Below are positions 5,969 through 44,724 of a stretch of DNA of 46,736 nt, one piece after another. Each line of letters starts with the position of its first letter. Within the stretch, counting starts at the first letter, position 1. Both the position numbers and the translations under genes were made by a program. Below the pieces are notes generated by a model that saw nothing but the letters and a program-made list of their open reading frames with translations, had not been told where the DNA came from and made no database searches. This DNA comes from Bacteroidaceae bacterium (GTDB taxonomy: Bacteria > Bacteroidota > Bacteroidia > Bacteroidales > Bacteroidaceae), in contig JAFXDG010000130.1 in assembly GCA_017521285.1 (NCBI GenBank), forward strand, positions 1 through 46,736, written 5' to 3'.

Positions 5969-5977
5969 CAAACCTTA

Positions 5978-6065
5978 CCCTTGGGATAAGGTTCGTTCAC
6001 CCTTGGGATAAGGCTGGTTCATCCTTGGGTTAAGAGTGGCCGAGTCATGTGACAACAGTGGCCGG
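5978..6065. repeat. Four 22-nt tandem units with half-unit switching, inside an operon
   Basis: The units start at 5978, 6000, 6022 and 6044. The left halves are CCCTTGGGATAAG, CCCTTGGGATAAG, TCCTTGGGTTAAG and GTCATGTGACAAC. The right halves are GTTCGTTCA, GCTGGTTCA, AGTGGCCGA and AGTGGCCGG. Units 1 and 2 therefore share both halves, 2 and 3 only the left, and 3 and 4 only the right. The spacing is exactly 22 nt, so it is not coding. It occupies most of the gap between the DUF5063 gene and the exonuclease gene. Confidence 0.85.
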
Positions 6066-15164: not shown

Positions 15165-15284
15165 TAATGTGACAATATGCCAATGTGTTAATGTGCCAAT
15201 GGCCATGCGGCGTGATACATTAGCAAATTGACATAAGCATAGTCATTAGCATATTAGCAAATTGGCACATTAGCAAATTAAATA
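15165..15284. repeat. Hairpin of 8-nt words (AATGTGCC) between adaptor and pump genes
   Basis: The left arm reads AATGTGAC, AATATGCC, AATGTGTT, AATGTGCC, AATGGCC in strict 8-nt phase. The right arm reads CATTAGCA, TATTAGCA, AATTGGCA, CATTAGCA, AATT. The arms are imperfect reverse complements. A second hairpin of the same word family lies at 44617-44718. Here it sits inside an operon, where it could tune the adaptor-to-pump ratio. Confidence 0.8.
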
Positions 15285-23184: not shown

Positions 23185-23355
23185 TTTATTGGCACAAAAT
23201 AGATTATTTCTTCAATGAATCAGTGGAAAAAAGTATCTATCCAGTGGTGATTGCTTTCGTGAGAATGCTTTTTGAGGTAAAAGATTTATGCTTCTGTAAA
23301 TATTTCATCCCTCACGATGTAAAGAAACAGAAAAACTGTTTTGCTCCACTCTCTT

Positions 23356-23421
23356 CATCCCAAGGCTAAGCCAGCCTTAACCCAAGGCTAAGGTTACTTC
23401 ATCCCAAGGTTGAGCATCAGT
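23356..23421. repeat. Three 22-nt units, conserved 5' part with variable 3' part (CCCAAGG array)
   Basis: Units start at 23356, 23378 and 23400. The 5' parts are CATCCCAAGGCTAAG, TAACCCAAGGCTAAG and CATCCCAAGGTTGAG. The 3' parts CCAGCCT, GTTACTT and CATCAGT differ. The core resembles the CCTTGGG core of the array at 5978. A weaker CATTTACGACCC unit begins in phase at 23422. Confidence 0.8.
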
Positions 23422-23548: not shown

Positions 23549-23575
23549 TGTTTTCAGTCACATCCCCTCCTGTCC

Positions 23576-23686
23576 GTGTGCACACCCTCTATTGGGCGTG
23601 TGCACACTATATAGTACTGTGTCTGAAGAAACTCCGCCGACCGTGTGCACACGGTTGGCGACACGTGTGCACACGCCCTTTCCGTC
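23576..23686. repeat. Palindrome array: GTGTGCACAC with variable 11-14-nt tails
   Basis: The perfect palindrome GTGTGCACAC occurs at 23576, 23598, 23643 and 23665. A degenerate GTGTCTGAAG at 23619 keeps the phase. Tails are CCTCTATTGGGC, TATATAGTACT, AAACTCCGCCGACC and GGTTGGCGACAC. Steps are 22, 21, 24 and 22 nt. There is no reading frame of note. Tails do not repeat. Confidence 0.8.
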
Positions 23687-32931: not shown

Positions 32932-33999
32932 TTATTCCTTCGGACAATAGGTCTGCAGGGGTAGCTCTTCCCGAAGTGCTCCCAGTGCATTGGCGGCCAA
33001 GGCTCCCATCTCGTCTTCGCCGGGCATGAGGATGACGGGGGCAAGGTATTCCACCTGGCGTTGCAGCTCTGTTGAGCAATACCGGCTGTGCATGATGCCT
33101 CCGGTCAGGATGATGGCATCGGTCTTTCCTTCCAGGGCCACATGCATGGCTCCGATGTGTTTGGCCACGTTGTAGAGCATGGCGTCCAGCACCAGTTTGT
33201 CTGGTTCGATGCCTTGCTCGGCATTGGCTGCAATGGAAATCATGTCGTTGTTTCCCAAGTGGGCAATGAGGCCGCCCTGTCCGCAGAGCATCTTCTTCAC
33301 CTGACGTTCGTCATACCGGCCGCTGAAGCAGAGTTCCACCAGTTGGTTGGCTGGCACGGTACCTGCCCGTTCGGGTGTGAAGGGGCCGTCGCCATTGAGG
33401 GCATTGTTCGTGTCGATGACCTTGCCCATCCGGTGTGCGCTCACCGATATTCCTCCTCCCAAGTGTGCGATGACGAAGTTCATCTCCCTGTATCGTCGTC
33501 CGATAGACTTGGCGTAGCGTCGGGCCACGGCCTTGGTGTTGAGGGCGTGGAAGATGGAGATGCGCTGTATCTCGGGGATGCCCGTCAGTCGGGCCACGGG
33601 CTGTAGTTCGTCAACTACCTCAGGGTCGGCAATGAAGGCCGGACAATGGCACAGGGCTGCTATATCCTCGGCGATGAGGGCGCCCAGATTACAGGCATGT
33701 TCGTGTTGGCTGTTCAGCAGGTCGTGCTTCATCAGTTCGTTGATGGTATAGACGCCTCCCGGAGTGGGACGCAAGAGGCCGCCACGGGCTATGACCGCAT
33801 CGAACCGCACCTCGATGCCAGCCTTACGCATCAAGTCGAGGACAAATTCGCGACGGTACTCATACTGTTCGTTCACATGATGGAAGGGGGTCAGGTCTTT
33901 GGCTGGATGGTGTGCTCCGGTCATCCACGTGCATTCGGTGTCTTCATAGACTGCCAGTTTGGTAGAGGTGGAGCCGGGATTGATTACGAGTATTCGCAT
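32932..33999 (-). CDS. buk: Butyrate kinase
   Basis: 355 aa, an ASKHA-fold acyl-phosphate kinase. It makes ATP and a short-chain acid from butyryl phosphate (or a related acyl phosphate). Motifs are RILVINPGSTSTKLAVYED (2-20), the phosphate loop AHLGGGISV and C-terminal ILTGGIMHS. The length is standard for Buk. It follows ptb by 64 nt on the same strand. In Bacteroidales without a butyryl-CoA-forming pathway, the pair may use isobutyryl-, isovaleryl- or propionyl-CoA; which one is not visible here. Confidence 0.93.
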   Translation of the reverse strand: MRILVINPGSTSTKLAVYEDTECTWMTGAHHPAKDLTPFHHVNEQYEYRREFVLDLMRKAGIEVRFDAVIARGGLLRPTPGGVYTINELMKHDLLNSQHEHACNLGALIAEDIAALCHCPAFIADPEVVDELQPVARLTGIPEIQRISIFHALNTKAVARRYAKSIGRRYREMNFVIAHLGGGISVSAHRMGKVIDTNNALNGDGPFTPERAGTVPANQLVELCFSGRYDERQVKKMLCGQGGLIAHLGNNDMISIAANAEQGIEPDKLVLDAMLYNVAKHIGAMHVALEGKTDAIILTGGIMHSRYCSTELQRQVEYLAPVILMPGEDEMGALAANALGALREELPLQTYCPKE

Positions 34000-34025: not shown

Positions 34026-34071
34026 ACTATAGTTACTATAGGCACTATAGATGTCTATAAGACCTATAGGG
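34026..34071. repeat. 9-10-nt ACTATAGG words between ptb and buk
   Basis: ACTATAGTT, ACTATAGGC, ACTATAGATGT, CTATAAGAC, CTATAGGG. The tract covers the ptb stop codon (TAG from CTA at 34064-34066). TATAGGNNN words recur at 39007-39060 and 39897-39923. Confidence 0.65.
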
Positions 34072-34990
34072 CGGCAGGGGCTTGTTCCCCTGCCATGGTG
34101 CATGCCAGCACCAGGCTGTAGTACTTCGAGTCATCGGAGTCGGCTCTTGAGGGCAACACCACGGGAGCGGTTGTACCCGTGAGCATCCCTGCCATGCAGG
34201 CTTGTCCGAAGAGGGAGATGGCCTTGTAGAAGGTGTTGCTCGATTCGATGTTGGGGAAGATGAGCAGGTCGGCATTGCCCGCTATGGTTGAGTCGATGCC
34301 TTTCACTTGTCCGCTGTGCGGGTCACAGGCGGTCTTCACATCCATGGGGCCGTCAATTTGCAGACGGCCATAGAGGCCCTTACGCGCGCGTTCCTTTAAT
34401 ATAACGTATCCCAATGTGTGGGGAAACTTGCCATTGATTTTCTCGGTACAGTGTATGAGGGCCACTTGCGGTTCGTCGATGCCCAGGCGGTTGCACACCT
34501 CGAGGTCGTATTTCAGCATGGCTTCGAAGTGCGACACACGGGGACGTGGCACCACGGCTGCATCGGAGAAGAGCAGCAATTTGTGGTACATGGGCAGTTG
34601 GGCCACGGTGACGTGGCTCAGCACATGTCCCAGTGGCAACAGGCCCTGCTCCTTGCTCAGTACGGCACGCAGCAACACGTCGGTGTTCAGTGTCCCCTTC
34701 ATCAGCACATTGGCTTCGCCCTTGTGTACCAGGGCTACGGCCAGACGGGCTGCATCCACCGTGTCTTCGGCCATGTGCACGGTCACTTGTCCGGGATATT
34801 GCCGGCGTATCTCTTCGGCTTCGTGGCCATGTTCCTTGTCGGTCACCAGCGAGAAGTCGGCTATGCCTTCACTGAGGCTGCGCCGGATGACGTGGCACGT
34901 GTGTTCGTCGTGCGGACAGGCCACTGCTATGCGTCGGCGCGTGTGCTGGTTGTGCAGACGCGCTATCAATTGGTCAAATGTCAGACTCAT
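34064..34990 (-). CDS. ptb: Phosphate butyryltransferase
   Basis: 308 aa, of the phosphate acetyl/butyryltransferase family. It converts acyl-CoA and phosphate to acyl phosphate and CoA, feeding Buk. Family stretches are LMKGTLNTDVLLRAVL, LSHVTVAQLP and the C-terminal ADLLIFPNIESSNTFYK. It is first in the ptb-buk pair. A GAACTTTG stretch (minus strand, 35028-35035) may be its -7 box. The last codon and stop lie inside the ACTATAGG repeat. Confidence 0.92.
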   Translation of the reverse strand: MSLTFDQLIARLHNQHTRRRIAVACPHDEHTCHVIRRSLSEGIADFSLVTDKEHGHEAEEIRRQYPGQVTVHMAEDTVDAARLAVALVHKGEANVLMKGTLNTDVLLRAVLSKEQGLLPLGHVLSHVTVAQLPMYHKLLLFSDAAVVPRPRVSHFEAMLKYDLEVCNRLGIDEPQVALIHCTEKINGKFPHTLGYVILKERARKGLYGRLQIDGPMDVKTACDPHSGQVKGIDSTIAGNADLLIFPNIESSNTFYKAISLFGQACMAGMLTGTTAPVVLPSRADSDDSKYYSLVLACTMAGEQAPAAL

Positions 34991-35140: not shown

Positions 35141-35437
35141 GCCATCAAGATGTACCCTTCGGCGACATCAAGTTCTCCCACTCGATGACATCAAGTTCTT
35201 CCACTCGATGACATCAAGTTCTCCCGATGGGTGACATCTTGATGTCTCTGCAAGGGGGGTGAAGAGGGGGTGAAATTGCCCCCTGCAGAGTACCCTCCGG
35301 AGACCCACCTGTGTCTTGCTCAGAGACCCACCTGTGTCTTGGCCGGAGACCCACCTGTGTCTCGGGCAGAGACCCACCTGTGTCTCTGAGGGTGTCCCAC
35401 CTGTGTCTCTGAGGGGGTGGTTTCAGTCAGTGCAGAG
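35141..35437. repeat. 23-nt periodic array: two unit types, each conserved 5' with variable 3'
   Basis: Type A units start at 35141, 35164, 35187, 35210 and 35233. Their 5' parts are GACATCAAGTTCT (GCCATCAAGATGT in the first, GACATCTTGATGT in the last) and their tails vary. Type B units start at 35300, 35323, 35346, 35369 and 35392. Each has the 5' part GAGACCCACCTGTGTCT (GTGTCCC... in the last), with 6-nt tails TGCTCA, TGGCCG, CGGGCA, CTGAGG, CTGAGG. The A-to-B gap is 67 nt, nearly three units. No frame spans it, and 23 is not a codon multiple. The rest of the gene-less 34991-35652 shows only a promoter at its end. Confidence 0.88.
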
Positions 35438-35593
35438 ATGTCTCTGTAAAGGTTTTATTAGTTTCTTTATCAATGGATTATGTATGTTGGTTCCTAAGAG
35501 GACAGCGAGTCCTTGGGGATGTGAAACGCTCCTTTCCTTCTTGGAGGGGGAAATATTGTCAGCACTTTTCTTGCTCGTTTGGAAAAGTTTCCT

Positions 35594-35601
35594 TACTTTT
35601 G
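35594..35601 (+). promoter_or_regulatory. -7 box for the DUF4332 gene
   Basis: TACTTTTG followed by C, with TTG 20 nt before it (35571-35573). It is 51 nt upstream of the ATG. Confidence 0.6.
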
Positions 35602-35652
35602 CCCTTTGTAAGAAGAAACTGATTTATTAACTTATTTAATATCCAAACATTT

Positions 35653-36060
35653 ATGGCTTATAAGATTATTGACATCGAGGGCGTAGGCGAGGCTTATGCC
35701 GAGAAACTGATTGCTGCCGGTGTGACTACTACCGATGCATTGTTGAAGAAGTGTGCTGCTCCCGCTGGCCGCAAGGCTTTGGCTGAAGAGACCGGTATCA
35801 GCGACAAACTCATCCTGAAGTGGACAAACCATGCCGACCTTATCCGTATCCACGGTGTAGGCCCTCAGTTTGCAGAACTTCTTGAGGCTGCTGGTGTTGA
35901 CACTGTGAAGGAACTGAAGCACCGCGTACCCGCCAACTTGAAGGCTAAGATGGAAGAGGTGAACGCTGAGAAGAACCTGGTGAACCGCGTACCCTCTGAA
36001 AAGGAATTGGTAAAGATGGTTGCCGAGGCAAAGGAATTGCCCGCAGTGGTTGAATATTAA
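35653..36060 (+). CDS. DUF4332 protein with helix-hairpin-helix motifs
   Basis: 135 aa, cytoplasmic. Two helix-hairpin-helix stretches are visible: IEGVGEAYAEKLIAAGVTT (8-26) and IHGVGPQFAELLEAAGVDT (about 74-92). HhH pairs bind the DNA backbone without sequence specificity in polymerases and repair proteins, so nucleic-acid binding is a fair inference. No catalytic domain is attached. A single gene with its own promoter and a probable terminator. Confidence 0.85.
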   Translation: MAYKIIDIEGVGEAYAEKLIAAGVTTTDALLKKCAAPAGRKALAEETGISDKLILKWTNHADLIRIHGVGPQFAELLEAAGVDTVKELKHRVPANLKAKMEEVNAEKNLVNRVPSEKELVKMVAEAKELPAVVEY

Positions 36061-37047: not shown

Positions 37048-37190
37048 GGTGTGTCAAAATGCCTTCTTTTTATTCTTTAGACGCGGATGACGCGGATAAC
37101 GCAGATAAATTATAACCTTTCGGGTATAATAATTAAGAAAATCCGCGTCATCTGCGTCATCTGCGTCTAAAAAGTTAATTATGACACACC
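37048..37190. repeat. Largest GACGCGGAT-family hairpin at a convergent junction
   Basis: The outer arms GGTGTGTCA (37048) and TGACACACC (37182-37190) enclose inner arms TTTAGACGCGGATGACGC (from 37076) and GCGTCATCTGCGTCTAAA (to 37171). Three 9-nt words GACGCGGAT, GACGCGGAT, AACGCAGAT stand in phase, and GCGTCATCT words answer them. It probably serves as a two-way terminator for the genes ending at 36989 and 37272. Confidence 0.8.
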
Positions 37191-44616: not shown

Positions 44617-44718
44617 TTAATGTGTCAATATGCAAATTTGCCAATGTGCCAATGTGCTCATCTAATAGTGCCGGTCATTGGCATATTAGCATATTGGCAC
44701 ATTGGCACATTAGCATAT
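44617..44718. repeat. Hairpin of 8-nt words (AATGTGCC), second copy
   Basis: The left side reads AATGTGTC, AATATGCA, AATTTGCC, AATGTGCC, AATGTGCTC. The right side reads CATTGGCA, TATTAGCA, TATTGGCA, CATTGGCA, CATTAGCA, TATTA. It has the same word family and design as 15165-15284, nearly 30 kb away, but a different unit order. It separates dnaN from the exonuclease gene. Confidence 0.8.
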
Positions 44719-44724
44719 TATTTT

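Follow-up and report, generated by a model that had tools for sequence, protein, structure and literature searches.

Tandem palindrome arrays and HU-HIG genes in gut Bacteroidales: candidate binding sites of self-regulating DNA-binding proteins

The stretch of DNA analysed here (hereafter the window: all 46,736 nucleotides of contig JAFXDG010000130.1, assembly GCA_017521285.1, from a Bacteroidaceae bacterium) carries two tandem arrays of short palindromes, termed type A and type B, in the intergenic region upstream of a ptb-like gene. Arrays of this design often stand before certain HU-family genes in gut bacteria, and the pairing of array and gene is well supported by several tests. The genes in question encode proteins of the HU-HIG family (PF18291), a clade of the HU/IHF superfamily. 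Textbooks present HU proteins as packing bacterial DNA without sequence specificity, and the arrays before HU-HIG genes suggest that proteins of this kind have their own rows of chromosomal landing sites. Judged from sequence comparison, the two window arrays are probably binding-site arrays of self-regulating, sequence-specific HU-HIG proteins. Both appear to belong to the HU-HIG array family; the type A array has a partner gene within the same genome, and no partner was seen there for type B.

All ten repeat units proposed in a first-pass annotation of this DNA, five of each type, were confirmed in position and follow an exact 23-nt step. That annotation described each unit as a constant 5' part with a changing 3' tail, a picture that turned out to be a product of the register chosen. 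The unit is better described as a 14-bp palindrome followed by a 9-nt variable spacer, and in this register types A and B fall into one common layout, GA[C/G]N8[C/G]TC, as two cores of a single design. The dyad proposed for type B is present in its units, although GAGAC...GTCTC is complete in just two of the five (35346 and 35369), and the type A unit is a dyad as well (GACATCTTGATGTC at 35233, with the core written GACATCAAGATGTC); the middle type A units are hybrids (GACATCAAGTTCTC) and the first is degenerate. Adjacent type B cores agree at 14, 14, 14 and 13 of 14 positions, and the spacers between them at 6, 6, 4 and 8 of 9. Over 54 array places (195 pairs of adjacent units), agreement was 0.888 in the core vs 0.574 in the spacer; only GA...TC units were counted, so those four core positions are fixed by the selection of rows. 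Inner palindrome positions co-vary (0.308 vs 0.135, in rows chosen for their dyads). The proposal that change is confined to one end of the unit thus holds within arrays, where variation is concentrated in the spacer, but not between loci and species, where the core itself is swapped. Similarly, the case that the annotation had listed as refuting it, tails varying no more than the 5' parts, holds across species in the sense that entire cores are exchanged there, and it does not hold inside an array.

The array region is non-coding, as had been proposed: the step is not a multiple of three and, although mechanical open reading frames no longer than 104 aa reach into the region, none spans 35141-35407; a coding repeat was rejected on these grounds. 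Tandem Repeats Finder scored the type A array at 117 and the type B array at 140-163. A detector requiring at least three tandem dyads of 14 or 15 bp gave the window a score of 28 and a score of 0 on all 60 of 60 whole-window Markov shuffles; a looser three-unit test gave a single chance match in 2 Mb of simulated sequence. The view that this is not a plain minisatellite stands, and a spacing slightly above two helical turns remains a pointer toward protein binding.

The evidence tying these arrays to a protein comes from the genes beside them. Most of the genomes compared are incomplete (those of the genus are 65-99% complete, and the genome that holds the window, G000, 86%), and gene starts, neighbours and gene names such as fkp were assigned by a simple script and by eye. 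One recurrent neighbour emerged among the 54 array places, an HU-like gene directly downstream that was met in several species and also in a second genus. A search with a portion of this HU-like protein returned 23 genes in 10 of 18 genomes; every one of the 23 has an upstream palindrome array, with a core that is mostly private to each gene, and all eight array-rich genomes carry this gene. The curated cut-off of PF18291 was passed by nine of nine proteins tested, and TIGR01201 (HU_rel) was the sole NCBIfam match of four proteins tested, at 50-65.6 bits, below its cut-off of 68.6. Solved structures were looked for by sequence, and none was found.

Because HU-HIG genes were found in all 15 genomes of the genus, the array test was widened to HU-HIG genes preceded by 300 nt or more of sequence (103 rows, merged to 99 distinct genes). 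An upstream array was detected at 52 of these 99 vs 3 of 105 other genes (Fisher 3e-17), with a detector threshold of 8 that was set after the scores were seen; the control genes came from loci not fetched for arrays, and the window was tested apart. The positives comprise 39 of 73 HU-HIG genes in the genus, 7 of 7 in G101 and 6 of 19 elsewhere in the order, and leaving out the seven HU-HIG genes first met through arrays gives 45 of 92. The threshold was reached by 0 of 1030 shuffles, two scoring below it. The arrays end a median of 82 nt from the HU-HIG start codon (quartiles 64-107).

Array architecture follows the protein phylogeny. In the KWYA/KWYG clade of the HU-HIG tree, 23 of 23 rows have an array, 18 with a step of 23 and five with a step of 24; steps of 22 and 21 occur mainly in other clades, and no array occurs in two groups of rows, one of 11 and one of 17 (both drawn open). 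Step and absence are clustered on this tree, which omits four rows and is limited by its few columns: 19 changes vs 44.5 after shuffling, with none of 200 shuffles as low. A family-wide search with another clade member brought in upstream DNA unseen before, and arrays were present at 12 of 12 relatives scoring at least 72 bits and, at threshold, at none of the 18 examined among 25 places below 62 bits. The 62/72-bit split was read off the results, and one further weak place (G009) had been seen earlier without an array.

On these observations a mechanism can be proposed. Each HU-HIG protein of the array-bearing clades would have its own palindrome, repeated at least three times at a step of 21-24 bp in an array located either directly before its gene or within the 5' leader. 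HU-HIG dimers would occupy neighbouring palindromes next to one another, and their cooperative binding would repress the gene, amounting to autoregulation; that a protein should bind and repress through its own array is what we infer most naturally from the arrangement. Promoter-like TAnnTTTG boxes adjoin the arrays on the upstream side in 11 of 52 cases and on the downstream side in 11 of 52, against shuffle expectations of 2.2 and 2.3. In the G003/G007 subclade the array begins, by eye, 15-16 nt past the start of such a box in four of four genes, a position that could suit an operator.

The same placement could be read at the RNA level, with hairpins in transcribed leaders acting as attenuators, small RNAs or terminators, since some arrays do lie in a 5' leader behind a promoter-like box and each unit could pair. 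This explanation is quite improbable: other arrays are located before the promoter-like box or between divergent or convergent genes, none of the common mismatches (C-C or G-G at positions 3/12, A-G or C-U at 4/11) is a G-U pair, and the hybrid type A units pair poorly. At gathering scores, Rfam has no match in the window array, and an Rfam RNA was rejected; the sole match in the whole window is a tRNA elsewhere.

Arrays of this family are widely dispersed. In G000 they occur at no fewer than 11 places, on 11 contigs; the units found in the window recur on C54, C96, C95 (where B and A stand side by side), C135, C82, C55 and C57, and weakly on C70. A covariance model built from three-unit stretches re-found the arrays of G000 and added those on C37 and C104 among the best 150 of 536 candidates, at most 150 candidates being scored per genome in all model searches; on inspection both additions consist of 15-bp palindromes at a 24-nt step. 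At least 11 of the 15 genomes of the genus have model matches at E<=0.1 among the matches listed, and 5 of 151 genomes in a family sample have matches at E<=1e-5, under filters stricter than those of the genus search. The exact type B unit was found in 11 stretches of named records, forming arrays only in four Bacteroidaceae metagenome-assembled genomes from ruminant guts; the remaining three of these stretches are single matches. Other arrays keep the frame with different cores, e.g. GACATACGTATCTC, GAGACCGAGGTGTC, GACTCACGTGAGTC and GAGTAGGCCTACTC. Arrays with 24-nt-step units precede one and the same RND-transporter-like gene in two species (L272 on C104 of G000 and L117 on C60 of G005), and different cores adjoin each other there.

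Many of the dispersed copies carry the core of an HU-HIG gene in the same genome. Of 47 array places away from HU-HIG genes, 27 agree at 12 or more of 14 bases with an HU-HIG array found in the same genome; with genome labels permuted the mean was 10.8, and 27 was reached once in 2000 permutations. The match holds throughout for G007 (six places), G002 (two) and G011 (two), and it is lowered for some stretches (e.g. the A units of C95, C96, and C14 of G014) because they were entered out of phase. The type A core also lies upstream of the HU-HIG gene on C135 of G000 and so has its partner in that genome. The type B core lies upstream of HU-HIG genes on C49 of G011 and C46 of G005; the type B arrays of G000 find their best match in the HU-HIG array of G011, and no HU-HIG array of G000 matches them. 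Either the absence of the cognate gene from an incomplete genome or the persistence of relic arrays of a former specificity would explain this, and four arrays of G012 likewise match only an HU-HIG array of G101. Arrays that share a core with an HU-HIG gene but lie apart from it, among them the A and B arrays that separate ptb from the gene beside it, would serve as extra docking sites, which may regulate neighbouring genes or organise the chromosome.

The locus of an fkp-like gene (its protein resembles the fucokinase/guanylyltransferase Fkp, a name given by eye) illustrates the turnover of cores. In six species an array occupies the same position there, flanked by a conserved terminator-like hairpin on one side and a conserved promoter region on the other, with four core types: B in G000, G011 and G005 (two units in the last), A in G014, CCGAGG in G012 and ACGTGAG in G002. 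The six were found via their arrays, so array-less species would have been missed. Under the proposed mechanism, a change in the specificity of an HU-HIG protein would be followed over time by replacement of its arrays, so that palindromes turn over between species, and A beside B at ptb may represent such a hand-over midway. A broader conjecture, which we advance tentatively and consider somewhat less likely than not, is that HU-HIG constitutes a large family of protein-and-array pairs in which each paralog reads its own palindrome, keeps an operator array at its own gene and seeds copies elsewhere. Specificity would drift so fast that orthologs in sister species read other palindromes and arrays are rewritten in place, with A and B in the window marking the hand-over between an older and a newer specificity; such a system might correspond, in bacteria, to sequence-specific chromatin proteins that evolve fast and to the satellites belonging to them.

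Several observations weigh against reading the arrays as sites of HU-HIG proteins. No array was detected at 47 of the 99 HU-HIG genes, including whole clades, and the region upstream of a Parabacteroides distasonis HU gene with 60% identity scores 0, with two good and two poor units discernible by eye. Model matches occur in G001 and G008 (10 and 2, respectively), yet neither genome has a close HU-HIG clade gene at E<=1e-6. Of 36 other genes in the window, four score, and for two of these the score comes from the given arrays. Of the dispersed places, 20 of 47 have no same-genome match, and none of the 18 HU-HIG matches listed (of 21) lies on the five contigs of G000 that carry type B arrays. 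Dispersed arrays also favour gaps between convergent genes (18 of 44 vs 14 of 97 control gaps; control gaps were 12-19% convergent at five length limits, p 0.0004-0.0044), an excess that makes promoter control insufficient as their sole role; that they organise the chromosome is a guess. A Y1_Tnp domain (PF01797) was matched in 4 of 7 array-rich genomes of the genus (G000 C45, G012 C8, G014 C11 and G007 C7; three of these partial, in frames of 345-347 aa) and in none of the eight others. Finally, in G012 two GACATACGTATCTC-type arrays (L112 on C90 and L114 on C92) resemble each other on both flanks, which would be expected of copies of a mobile element.

The convergent gaps, the Y1_Tnp distribution and the paired G012 arrays also speak for selfish or passive short repeats, namely a minisatellite or miniature inverted-repeat transposable element (MITE) spreading between intergenic places and settling by chance at HU-HIG genes; the nearest printed case, the BrickBuilt repeat, is described in those terms in the parts of its report on which we draw (PMC4596501). 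We nevertheless judge this account unlikely. Comparison of the 150-nt flanks of the 54 array places showed just five alike pairs within a genome, so that the arrays lack a general leader or tail within that distance, and Y1_Tnp was not matched in the array-bearing G002, G005 and G011. Moreover, a wandering repeat leaves unexplained the 23 of 23 and 12 of 12 occurrences at one gene clade, the tracking of the protein tree by the step and the different palindrome of most paralogs, and the dyad is kept by compensatory changes.

Palindromic operator arrays might also be read by some other dimeric protein, such as a repressor of DNA-repair genes resembling LexA, and several type A and B arrays adjoin topA-, ruvA-, recR-, recJ- and rarA-like genes (names by eye). 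We give this very little credence: cores and steps track HU-HIG paralogs, neighbours across the 54 array places are mixed and convergent gaps are common, an assessment made without a formal computation of enrichment. The Bacteroidetes LexA/SOS box motifs GGA-N5-TCC and CTAA-N5-TTAG, taken from portions of a published account (PMC8565304), are absent from the palindromes when compared by eye.

Returning to the window, the two arrays and their neighbours are listed in Table 1. The first-pass annotation had suggested comparing the gap between ptb and the DUF4332 gene in related strains. Arrays do lie upstream of ptb in G000, G012 and G014 (A and B in each) and in G011 (B), but the right-hand neighbour differs: the gene beyond the array in G011, G012 and G014 is rarA-like, a name taken from the protein start as read and not from a family search, and here it is DUF4332. 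By eye, no array was seen upstream of ptb in G004, G005, G007, G008, G010 and G013; this comparison covered neither G001 nor G009. In the distantly related G003 the region upstream of ptb (L062) holds a different 22-nt tandem repeat lacking a clear dyad (CTTACCCTAGACTCCGCCCATC). The flank in the window changes directly after the type B array (35410-35650), and the type B units are 95-97% identical to the arrays on C54 and C96; the switch of neighbour may reflect either recombination at the arrays or a misjoined assembly.

Table 1. Arrays and neighbouring genes in the window
Feature	Position	Strand	Basis
Type A array, five perfect or imperfect 14-bp palindromes, each followed by a 9-nt spacer	35141..35246	.	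sequence, step
Type A palindrome starts	35141, 35164, 35187, 35210, 35233		sequence
G/C-rich stretch separating the A and B arrays	35247..35301	.	seen in sequence
Type B array, five palindromes GACCCACCTGTGTC, the last one GTCCCACCTGTGTC, with 9-nt spacers	35302..35407	.	sequence, step
Type B palindrome starts	35302, 35325, 35348, 35371, 35394		sequence
ptb-like gene (PTA_PTB, PF01515), pointing away from the array	34064..34990	-	Pfam 9.5e-35
Acetate/butyrate kinase-like gene, downstream of ptb	32932..33999	-	Pfam Acetate_kinase 1.6e-18
DUF4332 (helix-hairpin-helix) gene, right-hand neighbour	35653..36060	+	Pfam 4e-41

G-tract flanks similar to the separating stretch were seen by eye at other arrays. 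The window also contains a further intergenic dyad array at 23560-23675, composed of GTGTGCACAC palindromes at a 22-nt step, and two 22-nt-step arrays of one related unit (CCTTGGGATAAGG) at 5977-6034 and 23353-23409; by eye, no HU-HIG partner gene could be tied to the window arrays of this step. Repeat arrays with periods of 7, 8, 9 and 13 nt are common in the window (e.g. 15166-15280, 44619-44720 and 37081-37167).

If each HU-HIG paralog does have a private array, a multi-copy family of gut Bacteroidales proteins that has no established function would gain a testable target, together with the rule that step follows clade and with likely autoregulation, and the family would offer a natural set of protein-site pairs in which to follow the co-evolution of DNA-binding specificity and binding sites. 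The families of genes behind the arrays, HU-HIG (PF18291) and HU_rel (TIGR01201), have sequence-specific relatives in IHF and phage TF1. Among the papers listed by our literature search, no title or opening of an abstract tied HU-HIG proteins to tandem palindromes, subscription papers being mostly outside its coverage.

Among known repeat systems, plasmid iterons are tandem sites about two helical turns apart, presumed to bind protein cooperatively, and their spacing resembles that of the arrays described here. The present arrays, however, are chromosomal and lie at many unrelated genes, and the iteron-like character proposed at first does not extend to the strict sense of a plasmid replication origin: the window arrays are flanked by ptb and DUF4332, with no replication gene directly beside them, and like arrays occupy 11 contigs of the genome. 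A phage or plasmid origin was likewise rejected, with no exact type B unit in viral contigs, no phage match and plasmid records numbering three; a relative of one HU-HIG protein was also sought in viral contigs, and none was confirmed. Nor, in the layout of repeat and spacer, do the arrays resemble clustered regularly interspaced short palindromic repeats (CRISPR), the repeat being 14 nt and the spacers 9 nt and partly alike, instead of unique spacers of tens of nucleotides.

Repetitive extragenic palindromes and bacterial interspersed mosaic elements (REP/BIME), as described in the sections of a published account that we draw on (PMC3733652), are like the present arrays short intergenic palindromes in many copies, and the preference of our arrays for convergent gaps recalls them. 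REP/BIME are, however, stem-loops of 20-40 nt with a GTAG or CGTC tag (PMC3733652), whereas the arrays here have no tag and consist of 14-bp GA...TC dyads at a fixed step of 21-24 nt. REP/BIME are also accompanied by RAYT, a Y1 transposase; here PF01797 was matched in 4 of 15 genomes, all array-rich, and three array-bearing genomes are without it, as noted above. Although tag and step do not fit, this distribution keeps a REP/RAYT reading conceivable.

The closest resemblance is to BrickBuilt, a 23-nt tandem repeat of Porphyromonas gingivalis described as a MITE (Klein et al. 2015, PMC4596501), for which our comparison draws on selected passages and Table 1 of that paper. Like the present arrays, BrickBuilt has a 23-nt step, is intergenic and occurs at many places (19 in one genome); the second half of its unit is the more variable and dyad symmetry is mentioned. 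Units are gained and lost between strains, and by our own count from that table 6 of the 19 elements lie in convergent gaps. The two differ in that many BrickBuilt copies have a leader and tail with terminal inverted repeats, whereas the present arrays have no such general flanks, and in that BrickBuilt is one sequence family, whereas the arrays here comprise many palindrome cores. The words 'histone' and 'autoregul' do not occur in the main text of that paper, and the passages covered draw no link to HU. Nonetheless, BrickBuilt_14 is listed between PGN_0871 (-) and PGN_0872 (+), the latter a DNA-binding protein of PF00216 (Table 1 of PMC4596501), and thus apparently lies upstream of an HU-family gene. 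If the pairing proposed here is correct, puzzling intergenic repeats of this kind, perhaps BrickBuilt among them, would gain a candidate protein partner.
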